A stretch of 22,435 nucleotides of DNA from Actinomortierella ambigua. Its lineage: Eukaryota > Mortierellomycota > Mortierellomycetes > Mortierellales > Mortierellaceae. Shown here in pieces: positions 1-21,031 of this stretch. A program made the position numbers and the translations under genes. A model generated the notes under the pieces. The model made no database searches. It saw only the letters and a list, made by a program, of their open reading frames with translations, and was not told the DNA's origin. The DNA lies in assembly GCA_016098155.1 (NCBI GenBank), contig JAAAJB010000568.1:1-22435 (forward strand), given 5' to 3'. Positions within the stretch are counted from its first letter, which is position 1. Every line of letters begins with the position of its first letter.

Positions 1-3000
1 TGGCACGCTGGGCAATGAGTCGTGAGATCCGGATCGTAATCTCTGGGTGCCGTAACGCAAGTGTGTTGAAAAGTGTCCTTGGCATCCTAGCCACTTCTGT
101 ATCGCGAATAGCGTGGAGTGTCGAAGGAAAAGGTGTACCCACTATGAAGAGCAGAGATTGTAGAACATGTAAGTGTAAACATCAACAGCGCATTGTCTTC
201 AATACGAGGATCACAGCGAAAGAGACCTATCATAATATACTTACGAAGAACTTCGAGTTCACCGACTGACTCGTCCTGACTGTACTCGCGCAAAACCTCA
301 ACCTTGCCTGGCTCTTTTTCGAGAATGGTTCGAAGTCGCCCGTTGAGTACGATATAAATCGAGCCACTGTCATCTTCTTCTCGATGCAACACTTGGCTGG
401 CGCTGATCTGCATCCACTCCATTGCATAACTCAGATGCAACACTAAAGACATGCGGACAAAATGGGTTCTGGTTAGCGTGGAGAAAGAAAAAGCAGGATG
501 TAGGAGACATTGAGACCCCGAGCGCCCGCCTCTCCTTACCGATCGGAGGAATCAATGAGATGAGTCGCTTGGCCAAGGTGAGAAGCACCGTAGGGCTGCG
601 TTCCATGACAAGGTCCAAGGCTTGCTTGGATAAATGACTAACATAAGCGTTGGTGTGAGCAGTGATGGTCACAAACGAAGGGTAGCCAGACAGCGCAGAG
701 AGGTAGCCAGCCAGACCACCAGCCCCAAAGGAAAACAGAGGGAATGGCTTTGACGAATCGGAGGATTTATGACGATGCATACCCGACGATGCTGGCGATC
801 CACCATTGTTGGCAACGTTGGGTTGAGGGGATGCGACAGAATTCTTGAGGTTCAGTGAAGAGAGATGATGACCAAAGGCGTTGCGACCTTCCTCCGTGTG
901 CATCTTGATATCCTGCTTCGGTGTGATGGAAACATCAAGGACACCCTCAATCACAAAGAAGAGTCTTGCGTTACGCTGGCCTTACTCGACCAACACGGCG
1001 CCCGCAGGGAAGAACATGAGCTCGACATCATTTTCCATCTCGCTCATCACGGAAGGCACAGTCGACGATGTTGACGATGAATTCAAATGGGAGTCATCAA
1101 CAAAAGGCGCCTCTGGATTGCTGGAGTGCGATCCAGTCTTGCGTAGTGGGAATCCGCCAATGCCCTGCAGTGCCGGGTCCTTCAAAGTTGCCTGGAACAC
1201 TGCTGAGAAATAGTCAGAGCTGCCGGTCGTCCTGATCTCGGCACGACTGGAGCCCGCGGGCATGATGGCAGGCGACTGGACTAGTCCGATATTCCGAGAG
1301 AGACACTCCATGACCTGATCGCGCAGATAGCTGTCCTCCTCCTCGTTGCCATCGTCGACGAGAGCAGTGTATCCAGATCCCTGCCGCATGTACTCTTCTT
1401 GGTGCATGTCTTTTGAGGTGTTGCTGTACGCCTTGTTCATACTGCTCAGATCCTGCCAAAGGTTGCATTAAAAAAAATTAACAGTAAGCATAACGTAGTT
1501 TTTTTTTAAACTTTACTTCTTCTTCATACCTTTCGTTCCCAGCATAGCCACGTGAAAAAAGGCCTGCGTATTCCTAGCGGTCCCTGAAAAAATAAAGTCC
1601 TATGAAATGTACTTACCGCTTTACCTGTACGTCTTCGGTTTTGTCGAATCTTGATGGCCAGAGGATGATCGTCCTCGTCACTCTCGTCACTGCGGACGCT
1701 GCTAAACTTCTTCTTGAGGTATTCCAGAGCACGTGGCCTGAAGAAGTCGGCGGGAAGGCCATAGCTTCCAATCTCGTTAATGCTACGCTCCATCCTCAGC
1801 AGCTCCTTTGTGAGTCCGAGATATTTGTGTCCGGTGAGCAGCGTAACACGTTGGAAGCGGATTAGGATGACCTGGACTATATGAGCAGCGGCCTGAGGGA
1901 ATTTTTGTGTGAGGCGGTGGAAGGCTTCGGCCGGAATGACGGCCAGGGTGGTGTCAACCATGGCCTTAGCGACAATAACATGTCGCTTGCCTCTTCCCTC
2001 GTCATCATGACGACGGTGCTGTTGATATTGGTGGGATCCCTGGCCGTCGCCACCGTCCATACTGTTTCTAGTGTGCGCCGTGGTCGAGCTGCTGGATCGA
2101 CGCGGCTGGGCAGGTCGCGTGTCGTCAAGCTCCTCGGACTCTGACTCTGGGTGGCTGTCGTCCAGCTGTTCCTGGGCAGTCTCGGCCCCGAGATCGTCGG
2201 GGGAGAGTGAATTGCTATAGATGGCCATATGATTGGGATTGGAGAGAGGGCTTGACGCATTTCGACCTCCGCTGCTCTTGCTACTCCGACGGTGGCTCTT
2301 TGAGGAACGTGCAGAGAGGTTGGAACGTCGCTGGCCGTGCGAATGAGGGTGGTGATGCGCATGCTGAGAGTCATAGGGCTCGCGAGGGCCGAGAACATGC
2401 TCCAGACGATCGCGTTCCCGGTGCTGGCTGCTGTCCGAACGCTTAAACTCCTTGATCGGCTCATCGTCATGTCTTAGCTTGACATTTTCGGTAAAGAGCG
2501 AGAGAATGGTGAAGAGGCTGCTGAGAATGCCACCGTTCTTGACCTCATTCAGCAGCTGGTAGCCTTCGTCGTCGTTGTGGTCCCACGATGAGCTAGGCAC
2601 AGCCGAGGGACTATCCCGAGCGAGATGATCCTCGTCATCCTCGCTGTCATCATCGTCAATGACCTTTTCGTACACCTGGACACATCCGTCCACGACAATG
2701 TAGAATGACTTTTCCAGCTCGGGTTGCTGAAGGAGGGTGTCGCCAGCCAACAGGCGGCGGGTCTGGAGGTGGCGGGCAAGCTCGTGGAAGACAGGCTGTT
2801 CGAGGTAGCCAAAGATCTTGATGCTAGAGAGGAAGGCGCTCAAAAACTCGTCTGGGTAGCTTAACAGGGCTTCCTTGTCCTCCTGAGGGTTCTTGATTGG
2901 ATTGTCAGGATGGAGATCAAAGGACATCCCATGCTTGCCAGCGCCGGTCTGAGGGAGGCGTGAGTACTTTGTTAGGAAGCGGTAGCGGACGACATAGTAG

Positions 3001-3488
3001 ACGGCGATACAGATGAGAACCAGGGCGACAAGCAAGGTGGTGAAAGTCAAGTGGAGAGTGAAAGACCACGACAGCAGCCGGTAGACAGTTGAAGGGATGG
3101 TGATGGTGACAAAGGCGAGGATCGAGAAAGACAGAGCCAGGAGCTGGCGAAGGACAGGTAAGGTAGTGGAGACGCTGGGTAGGTGTTGTGGCTGCTGTTG
3201 GCTCGTATGATGGAGAAGAGGAGTCGCTTCCGCTGCCACCGATTGCACTACCGCCGAGGCCGAGGCCGAGGCAGCCGCTGCTTGGGCCACTAGTAGGGCC
3301 GTGGTGGATGAGATGGTCGACGACAGAGAGGGCAGGAGAGACTGTTGGTGTTGCAGTGGCTGCTCTTGTGTCTGAGAGAAGTCGGGCGGTGTAACCGTGG
3401 GAGAGGGTGGAAACGAGTTGTCGGGCAGTTCGTCGAGGACAGTCTCAGGAACCTCTGGAGCAATGACCGGATCAGTCAATGGGTCCAT
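1..3488 (-). CDS. NTE1: Lysophospholipase NTE1 (neuropathy target esterase homologue), N-terminal part, with an in-frame stop
   Basis: NTE1 family proteins are ER-membrane phospholipases B that deacylate phosphatidylcholine. Proposed exons on the minus strand are 3488-1617, 1452-540, 442-245 and 141-1, with introns of 164, 97 and 103 nt and consistent phases; about 1,041 codons are present. The ATG at 3488 (gcaATGG context) is preferred to an in-frame ATG at 3701, which would add 71 residues of low-complexity leader. Two hydrophobic helices lie near residues 113-138 and 143-168. A first CNB-like domain starts near 225 and carries a long acidic and Ser/Arg-rich insertion; it ends near the family motif [17 protein letters not shown] second CNB-like domain starts near 765 ([12 protein letters not shown]) and a third near 930 ([12 protein letters not shown] ... 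[11 protein letters not shown] ... GELEVL). The patatin catalytic domain is off the left edge. Codon 781 is TAA in otherwise well-conserved sequence, so the gene may be broken or the base miscalled. Confidence 0.9.
982..984 (-). other. In-frame TAA inside NTE1 CNB-like domain 2
   Basis: Reading exon 2 in the phase fixed by both flanking joins gives VLVE, then TAA, then [17 protein letters not shown], with no frame change. Fungal NTE1 proteins usually have Gln at this place, so CAA to TAA, a single transition, is the simplest explanation. A GTAAGG donor-like string overlaps the stop, but removing it would delete conserved residues or need an intron of 10-20 nt. Translation would stop after 780 residues, before the catalytic domain. 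Confidence 0.85.
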
Positions 3489-4541: not shown

Positions 4542-6180
4542 ATGTCTCAGGAACAGCTCCCAGAAGACTTCAAAACCTACTCCGAGCCCGAGGTCCGATT
4601 CGTCGAAGAGATCGGCGAGGATGGCAAGAAAATCAGGAGGAAGATCACCACTCGCAAGGTCACTCATCACAAAGTGACCGCCGTGCCTACCACTACTACC
4701 ACTACCACCACCACCTCCTCCTCCTCGTCCTCGTCCACCTCGAATTTTTCGACCTCTGAGCACGTCCACGAGGAAAGCAGCATCGCCTCTTCATCCTCCA
4801 CAAGCAGCATCACCAGCAGTGCCGAGCAACGCGTGATTGAAGCCACACTGGTGGCGGAGAGTGAAGACAAAGAGGAGAGGTCGTCGACCGTGTCCTCCTC
4901 GTCTTCGTCATCTTCGTCGTCGTTAGTCTCTCAAACTGGATCTCTGAAGCAGCGCCTGGCAAGCCAGATTCATGATCATCCATACTACCGTTTCCTGAAC
5001 CGGTTCCCGCTCAAGGTCTTGCCTGCACAATACGTGCGCCCCAAGCAGACCAAGGCCGTGATCTACTGCTTTGGTCCCGACGTGAACACGAGCGCAAAGC
5101 CTGAGAGTGCCGACCAGGAAAAGGAGCAGGAGAAGGATCAGGAGCAGGAGAAGGAGAAGGAGGCTCAAAGTCAGGACAGCTTTGATGTCGACTCTCTTGT
5201 CTGGATTGTATGTTCGCGTTTTCATCCACATGCCCGTTATTTGTCCATGACAAAAAAAAATACAAAAAAAAAAAAATAAAAACTAATATTTTCCAAAATA
5301 ATAATAAAAAGAACCAAGCTTTGCTCACGTGTGATTCTTTACTGCCTTGCCTTTTCCTCCCCTATTCAATTGTTTTAGGCCTACTTGAAGTTCAACAAGA
5401 TTGACTTTGAGATCAAGTATGTCACCGAACCAACCATGTCGCCCTCAGGAAAGCTGCCCTTCTTGGCCCTGCCAAGTGGTGAGCTGATCACCCATAGTGG
5501 CTTTGAGCAGTGGATCCAGGAACACCGTCCGTCCGACGCCTCCAAACTCAACCTTCAAGAGGCTGCCGAGGCCGCTGCTTTCAGCACCCTTGTCGAGACC
5601 AAAATCTTGACCGCTCTTGTAAGTCCTTACTTCAAAAAGTGTAGACAAAATACAACAAAAGGAGAAGCTTGTTTTGTTAACCTCTTCTATAACCCCTTCT
5701 CTTCTTTCTTTCTCTCTTTTTATTTTTGTTTAGAACTATACTCTCTGGTTCGAGATGGCGCATTTTAAGACAACAACCCGCCAGCGCTACTTTGGTCACC
5801 ACAACAAATATTTGGGAATTCTGTTGTCGTACCTACGCAAGTCTGACATCGTGCAGGGGATGCTGCTGGTCAAGCCCCAGGTCGATCGCGAGCTAATCTT
5901 TGAGGAGGCTTCCAACGCACTGGAGGCCCTGTCCGTGACATTGGGCAAGGAGAACACCGAGGGATACTTCTTTGGCAAGAAGGAGCCATCGTCTTTCGAT
6001 GCCGTCCTGTTTGCTTACCTGCATGTTATCCTGCGCCTGCCCGCTGTTCGGGACCTCCAGCCCGAGAACAACGCCGATAGCGCTGATGGCGCCAAGGCTA
6101 CAGAGCTGACCCGCATGGTCCGCAAGCATGATAACTTGGTCCGGTATGCCATCCGCATCTGGAACGAGTGGTTCGCATAG
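4542..6180 (+). CDS. Metaxin/Sam37-like mitochondrial outer-membrane protein
   Basis: Metaxins and fungal Sam37/Sam35 are GST-fold subunits on the cytosolic face of the mitochondrial outer membrane that help import and assemble beta-barrel proteins. Exons 4542-5207, 5379-5618 and 5734-6180 join in phase 0 (introns of 171 and 115 nt, both GT-AG) and give 450 residues. The metaxin-type N domain is seen in FPLKVLPAQYV, SFDVDSLVWI|AYLKFNKIDFEIKY and SPSGKLPFL. The GST-C-like signature is GYFFGKKEPSSFDAVLFAYL, near residues 379-398. No GST catalytic signature is evident and no C-terminal anchor helix is obvious. The first 140 or so residues are unusual: a basic/charged start, a Thr/Ser run of about 18, and further Ser tracts. 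A Glu/Lys/Gln-rich insertion sits inside the N domain just before SFDVDS. It could be the Sam37 or the Sam35 equivalent. The start ATG has a purine at -3 and follows a pyrimidine-rich leader. Confidence 0.85.
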
Positions 6181-9588: not shown

Positions 9589-12374
9589 CTAAAGACCAAT
9601 GGAGCTACATTTGCCAGAGACATTGTGGATGGCGGTTGTGTGGAACTCACCTACGCCTTCATGTTCACATCCGACTCGCCATTCATACCATACTCTACGA
9701 GTATCTGTTTGGCGCCAAAACTCAATTGTGACCACGCTGCCTGCAGGAGCATATATGGGGGTCTTGACAGGAAAGTAGATTGGGAACCAACTGAACATGC
9801 CGGGGGAATGTGTTTGAGGGTTGATACCTAATGACGAATAAATATAGAGAGGGAACGTGGGCATCGATGAGTGTACATCTCATTGCTCCGCTGCAACTTC
9901 CATATCCACGAGCAACAAGGCATGGAGTACCCTGGATTGCGAAAGGGGGGGGGGTCGAGAAGGGAGAGGCTTGGGGAGGAGGCAGCCTTAACTTGGAGAG
10001 GTGGGGAGCTGAGAAGAGACGAGGCGGAGGGGCGTGAAATAGAAGGAAAACTTACTGAGGGTAACATCCTTATACAACACAGACTCAAAGTATCCTGCAA
10101 TGCCATGGATGATCCCATTGGTCTTCAGCTCAAACAAGATTGACGCCGATCGAATGTTGTGGTGGTTGCTCAGGGATTCTAAATGGAGCGTCATGAAAGA
10201 TTTGAGGGGCAGGTGAGCAACGGCAGATCTCTTTCCAACCTCCATCCGATCATGCGTCAGGGCTTGCGAGGGAGACGATGTAGAGAATATCCCGCCCTTT
10301 GTGTCTATCTCAAATTTTCTTTGGTTTTTCACACAGCATGCTTGTACTCACCTTGGCCACATGGAATATCGTCAACATTGGGATGGTCAAATGTCCAAAC
10401 AGGTTTGGGTTCAGCCAGTAGAGAAATGGCCTGAAATTTAACCACATAGGACGACTCGAAACGCGTAGAGTCCTTAAACGCCGACACATTGTTATGCAGT
10501 TTGCTGGAACTCAGGGGAGCGACAAAGGCTGTATAGCTGGCAGGGATTGAAATGCCTGTACCAGGCTTGAGGAATTTTTGAGCGCCATCTAAGCATTCAG
10601 GTGAAAGCTCATTATCGCCAAAGGAACCAAGAAGCTCGCTGACAAGAATGTCTGCCTTCTCAGGAGCATTCCATGTCCGCATGTCTGAAAATACTATCGT
10701 CACTTTGTCACCCCAGAGTGTTGCCTTCATTCTCTGTAATCTGTGTTCGACACGCGATGCCGCGAATAACAACAGAAAAGAAAAGAGAAGAAAAACAATG
10801 GAAAATTAATATCAGGGGGATGGGGAGCAAACAAAAAAGGCGATGAATATACCATTGTCTTTGGCTGTGAAGACGTACGTGACAAAAGCGTTTGGATTCT
10901 TTTCAACCGCATAAATGCGGACGTTGCGTTTAGCTTTTTCTGCAGCGCGAAGGGAGCAATTGACCAAAGGCCCGCGACCCGCGCCGACAACCATCAGAAC
11001 AGCGGTGTCTGGATCTTGTGGATTCGACGGCTGAGGTCGATCTCTGAGAGCCTTTTCCACCGCAAGCTCGTATTGTTGGTACTTGATGGGGTCTTTCTCA
11101 AAGGTCTCGTAGGTGCTTGACTCGAGGTTGTCCTGCAGTGGCTGTAGTGGTGCCTGAAGGTAGTCCTGATATCCGGCTGCAAACTGCTCATCCAACCCTG
11201 GCGCCTCGAGTGGTCGATGGAGGAAATGAATATAGTCCGCAAAAGGCGAGGAGAAGCTCTGCTCCAAACTGTCATCAGAAAACTCGTCAATGACGTATTT
11301 GGGTATTGTTTTTGAGGAGAGAATGATTGACGGTTGGAACTATCGGTGAAGCGCATAGGGGGTAAGGTTAAGAGGTGGAGATTTGAGCACATCAATTCTC
11401 CAGATGCTACCAAAGAACTACCAGGATACCAGTAACGACACTACCTTGATAAAGCCTCGCACGATTGCCTGATGCCGTTTACTCAAGACTGGAAAACCGC
11501 TGTTGTTGGTCAAAAAGATCTCCTCGGGAATAATGAGTGCTTTGACAGGCTCTGCAAACCAGCGATCCATGATTTCATCGGAAGGGACAGTCTCTGACAG
11601 CTCCAGTGCGATGCCCAGCTTTGGATCGGCATCGACCATTGTTCTAAGCATGTTCCAACGCTCCCAGGACTTTGTGCCTTGTACGGAGGGGTTGGAAACA
11701 TTCATCTCGAGTTCGAGGTCCATGAGTGGTATCCGGATCCAGCAAGTGGTCCAAGTAAGGCTCTGAAGCACGCTTGCCAGGACACGGCTGTAATTGGAAA
11801 GAGGGCCAAAGGAAGGAGGGTATGGCAGCATCACGCCTCCAAGGCCCAGATGAGCAGTCCAATTGAGCTGCTGCTTCAGCGCCAGCTCTGAGTGCAGACG
11901 CACCGTCGCGTCTGGCGAGTCGAACTTCATCCATTGGGCAGGCAAGCCAACCAGGTAATCTGAGCGCTCTAGTAAGCATAAGAAAATGAGAGCGAACGAG
12001 CGATCGATGTGGGGGAAGCGATCAGTGATCAGTGATCAGTGCTCTATCTGCTATCTGTCCGAGTGGGCTACGCCACCAATATGGAGACCCAGTCATCCCC
12101 TTCCAATTGAATCATTTCATCCAGGCCGGGGTAGGTGAGTACCTGCCACCTGAAGGACCAGGTCCTCGGGAGTCATGGCCTCTTGACCAGCACGCCACTT
12201 TCTCAACTCGGTGCTGCTGAGGCTATGGCCGCGAAAGAGGACGCGCTCGTAGTGCGGGGTGGTGATAGGCGCCACCATAAAGTCAAGACCCTTTGCGAGG
12301 CCATAGTTGATCAGAGGACCAACATTGGCGGGAGTGAGCTGGTCACTCGGGGGCATGAATCCGATCTGGACCAT
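9589..12374 (-). CDS. PRMT5: Protein arginine N-methyltransferase 5 (Skb1/Hsl7 homologue)
   Basis: PRMT5 is the type II enzyme that makes symmetric dimethylarginine on histones, Sm proteins and other substrates in cytosol and nucleus. Exons are 12374-12143, 11968-11445, 11339-10879, 10740-10352, 10178-10056 and 9827-9589; introns are 174, 105, 138, 173 and 228 nt, all GT-AG with consistent phases. The product is 655 residues, normal for the family. An N-terminal TIM-barrel region (MVQIGF ... [17 protein letters not shown]) precedes the linker [20 protein letters not shown], whose Phe corresponds to the family's symmetric-dimethylation Phe. The SAM-binding GAGRGPLVN is near residues 370-378. 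The double-E hairpin [10 protein letters not shown] places the catalytic glutamates at 441 and 450. The C-terminal barrel has [20 protein letters not shown] and VWYEW, and ends IGL as in other PRMT5 proteins. A small insertion, rich in Gly/Glu/His, follows WYEW. All key residues are present and the gene looks intact. It shares its upstream region with the divergent UBR-MIR gene. Confidence 0.96.
9945..9954. repeat. G10 run inside PRMT5 intron 5
   Basis: Ten consecutive G on the plus strand (C on the transcribed sense) lie in the longest PRMT5 intron (9828-10055), which is otherwise purine-rich on the plus strand. Confidence 0.8.
12020..12041. repeat. Three tandem copies of a 7-bp unit in PRMT5 intron 1
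   Basis: The unit GATCAGT is repeated three times within the intron 11969-12142. Each copy contains palindromic TGATCA, so the run can also pair with itself. Confidence 0.85.
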
Positions 12375-13546: not shown

Positions 13547-16500
13547 ATGGTCTTTTTCCAACTCGTGCGTCTCCAAAAGGGAGTGTCGACCTCCGCGGGC
13601 TCGTCGCCGTCAGAGACTATTGCCGAACTGACATCAGCAGCCCACGAGGCCCTGTCCAGTTTAACCGACCCCTTGGTGGCCATCTCGATTGGTAAGCCCC
13701 GACAGAGTCTTGCTGTGGAGAGAGACACAGATACCGAAACACAGAATGACAGGGAAATGTCCCTAATTAAGTTTGAGGGGACCTGCGAGCGCCGTCACTT
13801 TCAAACGCCGTGTACATACTTCCCTCCTCGCATCCCCCCCCCACTCACCAGTACTGCCTTGCCTGTTCCCCGATCATCTTTCCCGTTATCTTGCATAAAC
13901 CCTAGTCATCCGGCACCAGCGCGAATGGGACCCCATTCTGGCCGCTATCGAAAAACGGGAAGGCCCTGACGGATCAGCCGTTGCAGCATCACCCTGGCAT
14001 ACACCTGGCCATCCACAGGAGGCAGGAATCTGGGCCTATCTTCCGACTGATGGTCTACCCCTGGAGGACATTGATCAGAACCACGCCAGGATCAGTACTA
14101 CCAAAGCTCGCCTAAGGCTGATCTACCTGTTTGCTTATCATCACCACCGCTCGAACGATGCACACAACAGCAGCGAAGATGAGGAAGTAGACAACTTTGC
14201 TCAGCACCCCCAAAGCCACACTGATGATACCACTCTTCAGCAAAATGAGAACCATCACACACTGTCGGAGAGCTTGTTGCGCTGGATGGTACTCTGCTCA
14301 TCGTGGTTCCATGTAGTCGTCTCGGACCCTCTCAGAACACAAGATTTCATCACGTTGGACGATGCCATCCGCCCACTCGCTCCCATGATACCTTCCCGCC
14401 GCCACACCGGCAGACGATCTTTGAGACAGCAAAGCCCGTTTCCAATACCAGCAACACCCTTCGCATCCATGCACAGGCACTTTGTTTGGACAATTCTTCG
14501 CCAATGCACCCACATCACCCGACAACAATTTGACGATCAAGCGTATCACGACCTCGCATCATATTTATCCAGCAGTGACCTCCACATACCCGACACATTA
14601 ATGCAACCAATTTCAGCATGTTTCCATACCGCCGAATGTCACGTCCTGAGGACGATTCAAGTTGAGAGGGCTCGGCCAATTACAGATACTGTAGAAGAGG
14701 AGATTCTCGGTCTCTCGATCCACAGTAACGAGCCCAGCGAATCTATTCACCACCCAACTTGGATCGAGAGAATTTTAACTGAGGGCAATGAGATGGCGTT
14801 GGCATCCTATGATCACGAATGGAATATGAGTGGTACAGTGTAGTCGGCTATTTTGTCCGCCTCGATATTCTTTTGTCATCTGGTTTTGTGATACTTGGCC
14901 TGGTTTTCAGCAGGGGTTCTAACAGCGCCCTAATTCTTTCAACAGGACCAATATACCTTTCCTATGCCGTGTCGACGCTTCTGGCACTCCAGCGCCCGAC
15001 ATGGACCGAGAACCCGTCGTTCTGGAAAGTTATTGACACGTCTGCCTGGGAGATGACACGAGAGACAGCGATTAAAGCAGCGCAAAAGGCGTATCACGAG
15101 TCAATGAACCAATTCTTAGACCAATACCCAATGCCGCAGCAGTGGCATGCGCTTGCGATGGCCCACCAGCGTGCCCTGACTCACGGAGAGCGGACTATTG
15201 AGAGGCGCCTTTTTGTCAACAGCAGCGGATTGCCCAAGCTACTCCAAGAGTTTCGACAGATATGCATCACCGTCCCGGAAGACTCTCATGGGGTGCCCAC
15301 GGCGGGCCTGTACTTGGAGTATTACAATATCAACGCAGCAGCACTTCAGAACTATCATATCAACTCCCTGGAGGAGCACTGGCAACTCAGCTTCAAGAGC
15401 CGTATGGCAGACATTAAGGTAACCGTGCCTTCTCTTTTAATGTAAGGCGTTCTTACTAATCGAGGTTTGCGCTTCATTTGACGGGTCTCATCTAACTTTA
15501 GCATACTTGATTTTTGTTCTCGTTCTTTGTACTTTCTCTTCTATCTAATTACAGGAGTATTCTCAGTTCTTGTTGGCAGTGGACATGGTTCGCAAGAGCT
15601 ATCTGGAGACATGTATTCCCTGTCCTGAGGCAATATCGGCGCTCGACAACCTGGAAGACATGCAACAGACTGTGCCGACAACGTTCTTGCGGATGCTGAA
15701 CAATTATCCTGAACACATCCCATCCTCTCGCACGGCGAAAACTCTGAGTCTGACTGGATCGAGCATCCTGCATACACCAATAAACACCAACCACAACCAT
15801 CATCACCACCTTCGCGGCCAACACCATCATCTGCACCAACATCCACGCAAGGATGCTCCAGCTGCCTCATCTGATCTGACGCGAACACGGACCCACCACA
15901 ACGATACATCCGCCATCATGGCGAGTATCAACTCGATCGAGCAGCAGATTGCAGATATCCTACAAGGCCGCCAGGCTGCCGAAGAGCAAGCAAAGTACGT
16001 CTGCACTCGCAGGGATTCGACAGGTTCGAAAGTATACACTATCCTTACAGCGACGTATCCATCTTTAGCAACTTATTCAAAAATGCGACCTTTATTGTTC
16101 TTTAATAGATCATTCGAGAGGAATGCGGCCCCTACAACACAGGTTATCAAGCCCAAGGCCAGCGCCACCTCGCGTACCACCACCAAGGACCACGATAGCA
16201 AAATGGCTGTTCAGTTTGGCTGGACCTTACACATGCTTCACGCCAACACATTGCAGTACGCGTGGATTTGGACTTGGCTCTACTCTCACGAAGGGTCGTC
16301 ACGACAGAACGTAGGCAAGTTGTTACATTATCTTGCGCCGTTTTTCTCCATGCAAATTTGTCAGTGGGACAAGGTGTGGTTGAACAGCCCTTTCGTCTAA
16401 CCTATATCGTTTTGCCTGTCTTAACAAACACTAGTGGCCTGCGATAACAAGATGTACACGGCCACTAAATGGATCATCCTACCAGCCAAGGATCAGGTCA

Positions 16501-19500
16501 AAACGCGCAAGGACTGGAAGGTCAATTTTGGCGACAGAGTATGGCTTGTGAGCTACTGGTTCTCGACACGTAATGCCAAGATGATGCTTCCAGAATACAT
16601 GCCTCGTGCAAGGGGAATGCCGTGTCGACATCTGATCCCATATGGCGAGACCTATGTGATCTGTAAGACGTGTCCAGCCGAGATTCTGTGCATGCGGTGT
16701 TTCCGAGCCTCAGACCATACCGACCATACCATGTACTTGCAATGCTCGTGGGGTACATCCGTCTGCGTATGTGGAGATGGCTCTCGGCTCAAACCAGGTC
16801 ATGATCTTCATTGTTCGCTTCACTGTGCCGAGGAGCATCGTTCCTACTCGAGCTTGGCTCGTGGTAAGCAGTGCTCATTCAAGTTTAAAGCCGGTGCCAA
16901 GGTTTTCCGATGCAGAGTAAGTTCAAATAAGAATGAACAATTGAGACCTCCGCAGAATGTCGAAGATCAAGGAAACTCACTGATCTCTGTTTGGGCGGTT
17001 ATTTACAATAGACGTGTCAGCTCGATCAAGCTACGTCGTCTGTGATCTGCGACCGTTGCTTCCGATCGGTAAGAACAGAATTTTCATTCTGACCCTCTTT
17101 TCTACGTGCGAGAGTGACCTCTGACAATCCCTAAAATATTTATTCCGCATCACTTTTTTTTTCCTTTTCGTGGCTCCTATTAGCATAACCATTTTGGTCA
17201 CGAGTATATTGCGCTCAGTGCCGAGGAAGGTGCTGTATGCTGTTGTAACGACAAAAAGTCCTGGAAGCTGCCTACGGTACCAAGTTGCCAGTACCACGAC
17301 GCGGGACCATTGGATATAGCATACACCACGGACTGGCTGCTTCAACCACAGACACAGACACAGGTGCAGCCACAAACACAAGCACAGCAACAGCGCCGAG
17401 CAGCCAACGGACGACGATGCGGGCACGTGTTCCAGCCAGGGGAGGATATTTACCACTGCCGAGACTGTAGCTTGAATGAGCTCACGGTATTATGTAGCCG
17501 GTGTTTTCACGGCTCGAACTGTGTTCAGCATCGGTGGCGAATGGGCGAATTCCAGGGGTCTACGCAACGGCAATTGGACCAACAGAAACAGCCAGACCAG
17601 CAGGAGCGACAGCAACAAAGGCATCAGCAGCGGCGGCGACGACAACGACGGAGCTCTGATGCAGTGTCATCCGTGTCTTCGTATTCAAGATCATCCTGCT
17701 CATCTTCGACCACGACTACCACTTCCCCAGCTATTGCTGGTGCGACCAGAAGAAAAAGGCTACAAAAGTCGTCTTCGCGGAAAGGTGAGCCTATCCCGAC
17801 GATCACACCGCTACTAGTGCCAAACCGAGGTGTCAGAAATCGACGAAACAGTAGTGCTCGCACCACACCCTCCACCAATGGTCAGAGTAAGACGGGCCAG
17901 AGCAAAGGCAAGGGCAAGGCGCGGCAGCTGTCTGAAGACGGCGAAGTCACCACAGCATATGTGACCTCTCTTGTTATCGACGTTGCTGGGACATTTCCTG
18001 ACGACCATCCTTGGAAGGACAGGGGCGATGGAACTTTGCAGGTCCACAGCGAATCGGACGATGAAGGGAGTGACAACGACGACGACGATCGTGAAAGTGA
18101 GGAGGAAGAGGAGGAGGAAGAGGAAGAGGAAGAGGAGGAGGATACTCTCGAAGCAAGCGACGATGAAGGTCATAGTGATGTTGATATCGATGATGACGAG
18201 GATCTAGGCGATGACGATGAAAATGGCAACGAGGACGACGAGGATGAGGACGACAGCAATGATGACGAAGACGAGGACGAGGACGGAGATGATGACGAAG
18301 CAGAGATGCCCATCTCGTGTGACTGTGGCGACCCGGCCATGTTCAAGAGCGCCTTTGACTGCAACTACCACTTGCCGGAGGAATACCGACCGATCCCGCA
18401 TCTCAAGTATTGCAACTACCAGTTCCGTGTGCAAGAAACGATGTATCACTGTCGGTCATGCCATGCCGCTGGCGCCTGGATCTGTACTCGATGTTATGAC
18501 CCAGTCCAGCATACTGGCCATATAATTGATCAAGCCCGGAACGAGCAGAACGAGGGCCGATATTGCAAGTGTGGCGACACGCGGGCCATTCTAGCCAAGC
18601 TCGAGTGCCGGGACGATCACAACCGTCAAAACATTCTATGCTCCAATGATATCAAGGAAGGATCATACTACTACTCCTGTGAGGTAAGACACGCGAAAGC
18701 CAGCGCAAAAGCAAAATTGCTAGCGATCGGCGTTGGTTGTTGGACTTAATCAAGTCGACTATGCGTTACTCACCTCCCACCAACTCTCCTTTGGCTCCGA
18801 GAAAGACTTGTCAGGTGGATTCAAACTCTGTAGTATGCGAGGAATGCTTCATCAAGGTCGCACACGAAGGCCATAATTATCAGCGGTTGTGCGCCCCAGT
18901 TGGATTTGAGACTACGCGTTGCGCGTGTGGTGAGAACTGTGCTTTCCGGTATGCAACCCACTGCGAGCAGCACGAGCGCGTCAATGGCTCCAACATTACT
19001 CATCGCTGCTACTATATCAGCAAAGCTGGTGAATGGGTAGCTACATGCAGGTAATCCCCGATAATATGTTGATTGAATCACGGGAAGGATGGTAGGTATC
19101 GCTTCAACGTAATTGATGTTTTTATTCCAATTTTCGGTCTCTTTCTTAGGGATTGCTACCCACCCGAAGAAACTGAGGATGCTGGAAAATGCGAAAGTCA
19201 ACCCCTCCAGAAAGCAGCCTCCGCAGAAGTATCTCCACCTTCACCATCTCCACCACCACCGCCACCACCAGCACCAACGACAGTCGCACAAAAACCAAAA
19301 ATGCCCTATCTTTGCATCCGGTGTCGCCAAGGTTCGGATCATACGAACCACCGAGTGGAGTGGATTCAGCTGGAGCAAGACATGACATACCCGTGTGCGT
19401 GTGGCACCGAGCTCGGATTCGACCCCCACACACGACCGCTATGCCAATACCATACGACAATACATAAGACGGTGCCCTCGACCACGCTCTATTTGCACTC

Positions 19501-19933
19501 GCACAGCCATCGGTCGCTCAACCACACGGACCACAACGAAGTCACCGGCTTTCGGTACCACAACTCTGATAATGACTGGATTGTGTGCCGGCCTGAAGGC
19601 GCAGGGGCAGGAGCAGCAGCAGCGGGGTCTGGAGGTGGAGGAGGAAGTAAGAGTACGGCAGGTGCAAGCAATGCAAATGGCAGTGGTGGCGCGGCTCAGT
19701 CTGGTGGTAGCAGCAACGGTAGCAGCAACAGCAGTAGCTCCCCGTATCTTCAGTGGCGCGACGTGTTTTGGCTCAAGCATGCCAACACGGGACTGTACCT
19801 CAACAGCATGGCGAACCTCAAGATCCCGCAAGGGTTCCAGGAGGTTACAACCCTTTCTGGCCTCCACAGCAATAACGATTGGATCATCGAGGAGACCACA
19901 TGGCTGCGTCAACAGATCCTGAGCGATGAGTGA
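13547..19933 (+). CDS. Large protein with six tandem UBR-type zinc modules and a C-terminal MIR domain
   Basis: Exons: 13547-13691, 13906-14832, 14946-15418, 15555-15994, 16109-16314, 16435-16916, 17012-17068, 17184-18683, 18806-19050 and 19150-19933. Phases agree at all nine joins, giving 1,752 residues. UBR boxes normally bind N-degrons in E3 ligases of the Ubr1 family. Cys/His modules fitting this fold lie at about 794-860, 877-948, 989-1306 (interrupted), 1320-1389, 1396-1466 and 1478-1593. Box 1 shows the pattern best (CRHLIPYGETYVICKTC, CMRCFRASDHTDH, CVCGD, CSLH). From about 1600 a two-part MIR domain follows (LYLHSH ... EVTGF ... DNDWIV, then LKHANTGLYL ... QEVT ... NNDWIIE), split by a Gly/Ser/Ala linker. 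The first 790 residues have no domain I recognise. No RING, HECT, signal peptide or membrane segment was seen, so a cytosolic or nuclear adaptor is possible but unproven. The weaker joins are introns 2 (GTACAG donor), 5 (GC-AG) and 8 (AAAG acceptor). The upstream frame is open, so a more 5' start cannot be excluded. Confidence 0.85.
16315..16434 (+). other. Apparent GC-AG intron (intron 5 of the UBR-MIR gene)
   Basis: The donor reads AG|GCAAGT, the strong consensus expected of GC-AG introns, and the acceptor is CACTAG. The join is phase 1 and produces RQNVVACDNKMYTATKW. No GT donor nearby is in the phase required. Stop codons just upstream of the acceptor (TAA at 16422-16424 in the downstream frame) rule out an earlier acceptor in that frame. 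Confidence 0.7.
17532..18317 (+). other. Disordered insertion of 262 residues inside UBR box 3
   Basis: Between the CxxCF ... QHRW half (Cys989 to about 1026) and the CDCGD half (from Cys1289) of one zinc module, the frame stays open for 786 nt. It encodes a Gln/Arg-rich stretch, a Ser/Thr-rich stretch with basic patches (TRRKRLQKSSSRK, KGKGKARQ), and a long Asp/Glu stretch with an uninterrupted Glu run of about 16. The DNA is GAG/GAC/GAT-repeat-like at 18090-18300. Confidence 0.8.
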
Positions 19934-20530: not shown

Positions 20531-21031
20531 CCAACCCCTCAAGGGGATTGGAGAGGTCATGGAGAGGTAGTCCAGCGATTATGCCTGTCCTTATAGCCAA
20601 CTCAGGGTACCCAAGGTGCAGTCAACACACGATAGCTCGGGCTCAGCAGCACCACCAACCCTCATATGAGAGATTGGAGAGGTCATGGAGAGGTAGTCCA
20701 GCGATTATGCCTGTCCTTATAGCCAACTCAGGGGGACCCAAGGAGCTGAGCCTTTACTAACGCGATATGTCTCCCATCGGCCTCATCTTCCCAGCGAGGA
20801 GTGAACGTCGAGAGTGGATGGGGTCATATGGAGGGAAGACACCTTCATTCATTCATCCCTCATGGACCCACGAGTCTTATGGAGAGCATACTGGTCTAGA
20901 CACGATAGGAGTAGACCGGTTGCTCAAATCCTGCACCTCCATGTCGAAGCGAATCGCCAAAGAATGGAGAGGTAATGGAGAGGTAGTCCAGCGATTATGC
21001 CTGTCCTTATCGCCAACTCATGTACCCAAGG
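20531..21031. repeat. Three direct copies of a 70-90 bp repeat (20531-20616, 20654-20742, 20962-21031)
   Basis: All copies share the core GAGAGGTAGTCCAGCGATTA followed by TGCCTGTCCTTAT and GCCAACTCA, and end near ACCCAAGG. Copies 1 and 2 are nearly identical over the core and start 123 bp apart; copy 3 is more diverged and lacks the left arm. Copies 1 and 2 begin with an inverted repeat of the form CCAACC ... GATTGG whose central bases differ. The minus strand of the core reads ELAIRTGIIAGLPLH in one frame in all three copies, which could be chance or a remnant of coding sequence. Confidence 0.85.

Follow-up and report, generated by a model that had tools for sequence, protein, structure and literature searches.

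A six-box UBR array in a Mortierellaceae protein family, probably nested in a MIR domain behind a degenerate GBP/atlastin-like region

The window analysed here is a stretch of 22,435 nucleotides from the fungus Actinomortierella ambigua (contig JAAAJB010000568.1, assembly GCA_016098155.1), and its subject is a forward-strand gene at 13547..19933, whose ten exons splice to an open frame of 1752 residues with which database relatives align along its length. The protein carries six UBR boxes with complete sets of zinc ligands. On balance we lean, if only slightly, towards a reading in which the array, inserted into one loop of one MIR beta-trefoil, sits on a pseudo-GTPase of the guanylate-binding protein (GBP) class and would serve non-catalytic recognition through many zinc modules, one surviving box still being able to read protein N termini; so far the arrangement has been seen only in Mortierellaceae. 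For the more general statement that the product is a large, probably non-catalytic scaffold or adaptor, with the array nested in the MIR domain and the pseudo-GTPase at its N-terminus, the sequence offers about an even chance. The sequence-only reading that preceded this analysis had proposed a fungal family of UBR-MIR proteins with multivalent recognition of N termini or other ligands. Its six modules, its MIR sequence, the absence of a ligase match in Pfam and the fungal family were borne out, whereas the multivalent N-terminus reading was not, and the GBP-like part had been overlooked.

A scan of residues 694-1752 with the Pfam zf-UBR hidden Markov model (HMM), the check suggested by that reading, gave 195.3 bits (cut-off 25.2; E 1.4e-58) distributed over seven passing stretches. 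That these are seven and not six is presumably due to a long loop that splits box 3; the complete relatives P0002 (Entomortierella) and P0006 (Linnemannia) have six stretches each. We assume eleven zinc-ligand positions per UBR box. Cys or His occupies 66 of the 66 positions in the window protein (11 per box in six boxes), and likewise all 66 in P0002 and in P0006, each of which is a single database model. Throughout 29 family proteins Cys or His fills 1233 of 1253 aligned ligand cells, against 4.5% at other positions; the number of sequences compared differs by box, many database models being partial or seemingly exon-skipping. Box 3 has a Cys in place of one His ligand and box 4 ends in C-x3-H, and mean identity among the six boxes is 23-34% (8 to 22 sequences per box). 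Three zinc ions are bound by a UBR box according to the portion of PMC10687169 consulted. The AlphaFold2 (AF2) model of the 1033-residue array half failed, with a mean predicted local distance difference test (pLDDT) of 36.4, which weighs against the favoured scaffold reading. A Foldseek search with this failed model returned UBR-box or Ubr1 structures in all of its best 29 rows, none of them at E <= 0.001. The six UBR-type modules are confirmed.

All boxes lie on the forward strand and all have conserved ligands. Box 1 (CVCGD) occupies 16623..16826 (zf-UBR 42.7 bits), and box 2 (CCCND) 16872..17300, two introns lying within it. The first part of box 3 (17418..17558; 37.2 bits) is separated from the second (18306..18374; CDCGD, the sole box with both Asp residues of the motif) by an acidic, low-complexity loop of about 250 residues at 17559..18305, with 74 Asp/Glu among 249 residues and long Asp/Glu runs at 17967-18305. 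Box 4 (CKCGD; 18411..18623) scores 45.4 bits and box 5 (CACGE; 18639..18976), split by an intron, 37.2 bits, while box 6 (CACGT; 19007..19456; 27.4 bits) is interrupted twice, once by an intron and once by a loop rich in proline. The box 3 loop measures 246-255 residues, with 58-74 Asp plus Glu, in the window protein and two Actinomortierella sequences, and 48-127 residues, with 6-39 acidic ones, in 19 other relatives. The Cys/His clusters had been described as spanning about 800 residues, which is correct for six modules provided that the loop of some 250 residues inside box 3 is counted in the span.

The residues that would contact an N-degron tell a different story from the zinc ligands. 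In UBR2, as described in the part of PMC10687169 consulted, two aspartates share the binding, Asp150 taking the alpha-amino group and Asp153 the side chain of arginine. The counterpart of Asp150 is V/A/L in box 1, S/C in box 2, D (17 sequences) or G (5) in box 3, H/K/R/C in box 4, G/A in box 5 and A/S in box 6; that is, Asp is found only in box 3 (17/22). The Asp153 counterpart is Asp in boxes 1 to 4 (15/15, 20/20, 21/22 and 20/23 sequences); in box 5 it is Glu in 13 of 14 sequences, and box 6 has Ser there in 13 of 17. Hence the type-1 N-recognin pair, Asp150 plus Asp153 in UBR2 numbering, is present in box 3 and fails in the other five. At Asp118, which we take to be the third acidic position, the counterpart is variable in boxes 2, 3, 4 and 6 and mostly retained in box 5 (13/15). 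A UBR1-like gene of the same genome retains the full CDCGD. The array therefore keeps its zinc framework, while five of the boxes have an incomplete set of N-degron residues.

These data bear on two alternatives. One is a multivalent N-recognin adaptor, in which several boxes would bind N-degrons and pass the substrates to a separate E3 ubiquitin ligase; the intact zinc ligands of all six boxes and the Asp at the Asp153 position in boxes 1-4 are in its favour, but the Asp150 counterpart is never Asp in boxes 1, 2, 4, 5 and 6, and we regard it as quite unlikely. Multivalent N-degron reading by the array, as had been supposed, appears unlikely because five of the six boxes are devoid of the Asp that holds the amine; box 3 alone could read a protein N-terminus. 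Under the second alternative the array no longer belongs to the ubiquitin system and has RNA, chromatin or something else as its ligand, with the MIR domain and the pseudo-GTPase in structural roles. The five boxes without the N-terminal-amine Asp and the long, charged low-complexity loops would suit it, but nothing was found that speaks positively for any such ligand, and it is an unlikely explanation.

The absence of a visible ligase domain, already pointed out from the sequence, was confirmed: neither the window protein nor any of 18 family members matched a RING, HECT or other catalytic module in Pfam, a result that leaves room for a cryptic one. Outside the 66 ligands, 16 Cys/His columns are conserved at 90% or above, and they form no cluster of eight. 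A third alternative, an autonomous atypical E3 in which the ubiquitin-conjugating enzyme (E2) is brought in by the helical region or by a degenerate box, through features that the sequence does not reveal, in the manner of the UBR4 hemiRING, has on its side UBR4 itself, which shows that searches by sequence may miss an E3 module (PMC10873205, the part consulted) and which weighs against a non-catalytic protein; in addition, 6 of 18 relatives are named E3 ubiquitin-protein ligase by their source, presumably automatically. Both the silence of the Pfam ligase models and the lack of such a cluster speak against it, and we hold it to be very unlikely.

The MIR sequence is clearest after the array. 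It comprises the tail of a repeat (TLYLHSH...NDWIV) whose first strand is missing, at 19472..19612 (+), and a complete repeat at 19742..19900 (+). This part matches the MIR domains of the same genome with an hhalign E of 2.8e-10, and its scores were reached by none of 400 shuffles in each of five comparisons and none of 500 in each of six, the repeat tail included. Of the 16 matches of its profile in the PDB, 12 are MIR domains (3mal at 3.7e-5, 1t9f at 1.3e-4), the other four being sulfiredoxins at 1.5-1.9. The Pfam MIR scan, also suggested beforehand, stayed below its threshold: the C-terminal 159 residues alone gave 22.3 bits against a cut-off of 25.6, with no match when residues 694-1752 were scanned as one piece; 7 of 18 family proteins matched at E <= 1 (best 0.00056). 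The MIR domain had been placed after the array, where it is indeed found, yet MIR-like sequence probably precedes the array as well.

The preceding sequence, the front segment (residues 694-787), would consist of a probable first MIR repeat of SDF2 type (residues 694-748; 16203..16487, +, spanning a GC-AG intron) and the probable head of repeat 2 (residues 757-787; 16512..16604, +), the latter assigned partly by the joined-profile match described below and otherwise by position. Against the PDB, its sole match at E <= 10 was 1t9f (E 0.57), which we take to be an SDF2-type MIR protein; 1t9f resembles the SDF2-like gene of this genome, consistent with that assignment. In Smith-Waterman comparisons with SDF2-type domains its score was reached by 0/500 shuffles for 1t9f, a target post-selected as the PDB match, and by 1/500 for 3mal and 2/1000 for the genome's SDF2, neither of which had been chosen through the front segment. 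The joined profile of front and post-array parts aligned to 1t9f at E 2.9e-5 as a colinear series of three blocks (33-77, 82-121 and 131-183), so that the array insertion would fall between chain residues 77 and 82.

Several results oppose this extension of the domain. The three 1t9f blocks are singly insignificant (independent E 17, 7.6 and 22), and joining the two parts changed the scores from 25.4 to 26.7 bits for 1t9f, from 27.1 to 22.7 for 3mal and from 25.2 to 24.4 for PMT1. Neither Pfam MIR nor hhalign against this genome's MIR domains gave a useful match to the front segment; the hhalign score of 12.6 compares with a mean of 10.1 and a maximum of 23.2 in 100 column-shuffled controls. 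When its profile was compared with five MIR domains from the genome, 5, 32, 19, 124 and 30 of 400 shuffles reached the scores; its repeat-HMM scores were reached by 1-72 of 500 in nine sequences (a tenth remained unscored), and its Smith-Waterman scores against three PMT-type MIRs by 16, 38 and 80 of 500. Against the genome's SDF2, moreover, the parts do not fall into one common register: repeat 2 is where the front piece of the relative P0012 aligns best, and in both P0012 and the window protein the post-array piece covers repeats 1-2, not 2-3. In Pfam scans of nine front sequences other models responded: Ins145_P3_rec in 3/9 (best 0.11), PDU_like in 2/9 (0.053) and DUF3485 in 1/9 (0.039), and P0006 scanned whole gave Ins145_P3_rec at 0.018, under the cut-off, over residues 761-870, which include much of the front segment. 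Weighing both sides, the front segment is a probable first MIR repeat plus the first strand that the post-array repeat misses, and nesting of the UBR array inside one SDF2-type MIR domain, within its second repeat, is rather likely.

In its N-terminal third the protein probably carries a GTPase of the GBP/atlastin class that has degenerated and has no P-loop. The GBP/atlastin-like region covers residues ~1-330 (13547..14750, +), and a helical region similar to the middle domain of GBPs covers residues ~340-577 (14778..15740, +), all limits being approximate. All five PDB matches of the N-terminal profile were GBPs (best E 0.0089), as were five of six with a profile from another set of sequences (best E 0.0046). 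The P-loop GxxxxGK[ST] is present in 0/14 sequences covering its position, and none of 29 sequences has it within its first 200 residues, while the G[IV]W motif is retained (GIW, residues 89-91, in the window protein). The AF2 model of the region is weak (mean pLDDT 45.5), and GBP/atlastin structures match it best; the helical region is assigned from helices in this model, and several VIA-align rows extend to hGBP1 residue ~486 at root mean square deviations of 13-20. The poor model nevertheless weighs against the assignment: its best Foldseek row has a template modelling score of 0.28-0.31 and a deviation of 20.7, unrelated folds appear from rank 20 (E 0.004), and Pfam GBP does not match the window protein. 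It was used because its matches exceed the remaining rows and concur with the sequence profile, an independent source. Pfam GBP found nothing elsewhere in the genome, being silent in control genomes too, so that absence is not established; a Sey1/RHD3-type GTPase gene (G000:C766:16814-17959, -) served as positive control for the GTPase search. A profile search for GBP relatives, in which the 7996 candidates sharing most words were scored and longer family members exceeded the length limit, returned five proteins at E <= 10, all of them Mortierellaceae family members, with no P-loop-bearing intermediate. Both the class and the loss of the P-loop are well supported.

Two further protein searches delimit the family. 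Among 170 candidates 20 proteins were found, 18 from Mortierellaceae and two with other UBR-protein domains; among 5579 candidates, 28, comprising 26 from Mortierellaceae, one further close relative and one UBR1-like protein. Protein searches of this kind need shared five-residue words and have length limits, and could miss distant relatives. Ten genera are represented, every one within the Mortierellaceae, to which the family is confined in these searches; the claim of a fungal protein family is accordingly sustained by 18/20, 27/28 and 5/5 matches. The closest relative found is another Actinomortierella ambigua protein, 88% identical over residues 694-965. Two other genes of the genome (33.8 Mb in 846 contigs) match zf-UBR, by eye UBR1-like and UBR7-like.

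The feature had been placed at 16435..19933; the UBR/MIR gene is real, and its start is at 13547. Exons 1-5 lie at 13547-13691, 13906-14832, 14946-15418, 15555-15994 and 16109-16314, and exons 6-10 at 16435-16916, 17012-17068, 17184-18683, 18806-19050 and 19150-19933 (+). One of the nine introns, intron 5 (16315-16434), is GC-AG and is needed for the 1752-residue model. Eight in-frame splice choices were enumerated for it, and the GC-AG one was adopted because relatives share its junction, which is identical in the close A. ambigua record P0001. A GT-AG alternative, giving 1745 residues, loses residues retained in close relatives and was rejected. A degenerating or mis-joined gene model might be suspected from the Mortierella claussenii protein, covered by two records with adjacent locus tags (P0032 and P0023), and from 7 of 9 relatives checked, in which between 1 and 10 of the 66 ligand positions fall in gaps, probably through exons skipped in the models. 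The single 66-ligand models of Entomortierella and Linnemannia and a gene that is open as one unit in the window make this explanation extremely improbable.

For the favoured scaffold or adaptor, the following course of action is proposed. The protein would be cytosolic. The pseudo-GTPase and helical regions would serve assembly or the binding and docking of partners, not GTP hydrolysis, and the MIR domain would probably be a folded base holding the inserted array. The six boxes would offer a multi-zinc ligand-binding surface on which only box 3 may be able to read an N-terminus, and any ubiquitination would be carried out by a partner, for example this genome's UBR1-like protein. UBR boxes have been studied mainly as N-degron readers, and a conserved array of six with intact zinc sites and mostly incomplete N-degron residues constitutes a natural test of other ligands for the UBR fold. 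The combination of ubiquitin-type modules with a pseudo-GTPase of the GBP class has a bearing on the reuse of the GBP/atlastin class in fungi, and the name E3 ubiquitin-protein ligase given to some family proteins is unproven and should be taken with caution.

Within the gene, a short EQQIADIL-type segment (15936-15962, +) stands isolated in the linker of low complexity that separates the MIR repeat from the helical region; 21 of 29 family sequences, some being incomplete, contain the pattern, which is a possible docking motif. Just 3' of the gene lie three copies of a 68-bp sequence (100, 97 and 94% identical; 20549-21031, +), with no further copy listed in the genome search. Upstream, on the opposite strand, lies a PRMT5 arginine methyltransferase gene with TIM barrel, catalytic and oligomerisation domains (10329-12032, -). 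Exons at 5379-6177 (+) resemble Tom37/metaxin with GST-type domains, and a gene at 1524-3440 (-), possibly NTE1-like, has a domain of the cyclic-nucleotide-binding type that scores 26.5 bits (cut-off 27.5).

In the open-licence literature nothing was found that joins a UBR box with a MIR domain or with Mortierella, nor a MIR domain with a guanylate-binding protein, nor GBP with pseudo-GTPase and fungi. The titles and opening abstract lines on zf-UBR in fungi and on MIR domains with fungal ubiquitin ligases do not describe this architecture, and the multiple-UBR wording in the part of PMC11134608 consulted concerns UBR5. No description was thus found of an apparent pseudo-GTPase with six UBR boxes that seem to be nested in another small domain.

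Partial likenesses to known systems exist. The N-recognins UBR1, UBR2 and PRT6 carry one UBR box each. The family boxes end in His as in the UBR1 subfamily (PMC10687169, in the part consulted). Boxes 1-4 have mean identities of 30-41% to the two UBR1-type boxes compared, whereas the family protein differs in having no ClpS, RING or UBR1 C-terminal domain in Pfam scans and mostly incomplete N-degron residues. UBR4 is not known to have a MIR domain, GBP-like part or six-box array. Like the family protein it is a large UBR protein, and its own ligase module was not evident from sequence (PMC10873205, in the part consulted). Its hemiRING-UZI was not seen in the family protein, no search having been aimed at it. 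GBPs and atlastins provide the closest fold and profile matches and the G[IV]W motif, but the family has neither a P-loop nor a Pfam GBP match. RNF112, among the fold matches, likewise combines a GBP/atlastin-class fold with a ubiquitin-type protein; it differs in carrying a RING, in having no known UBR or MIR domain and in binding GDP, as its GDP-bound structure titles indicate. The MIR domains of SDF2 and the PMTs, proteins located in the endoplasmic reticulum, share with the family the repeats with an LHSH and W core, and differ from it in that the family's MIR, if the front part belongs to it, is interrupted by about 800 residues.
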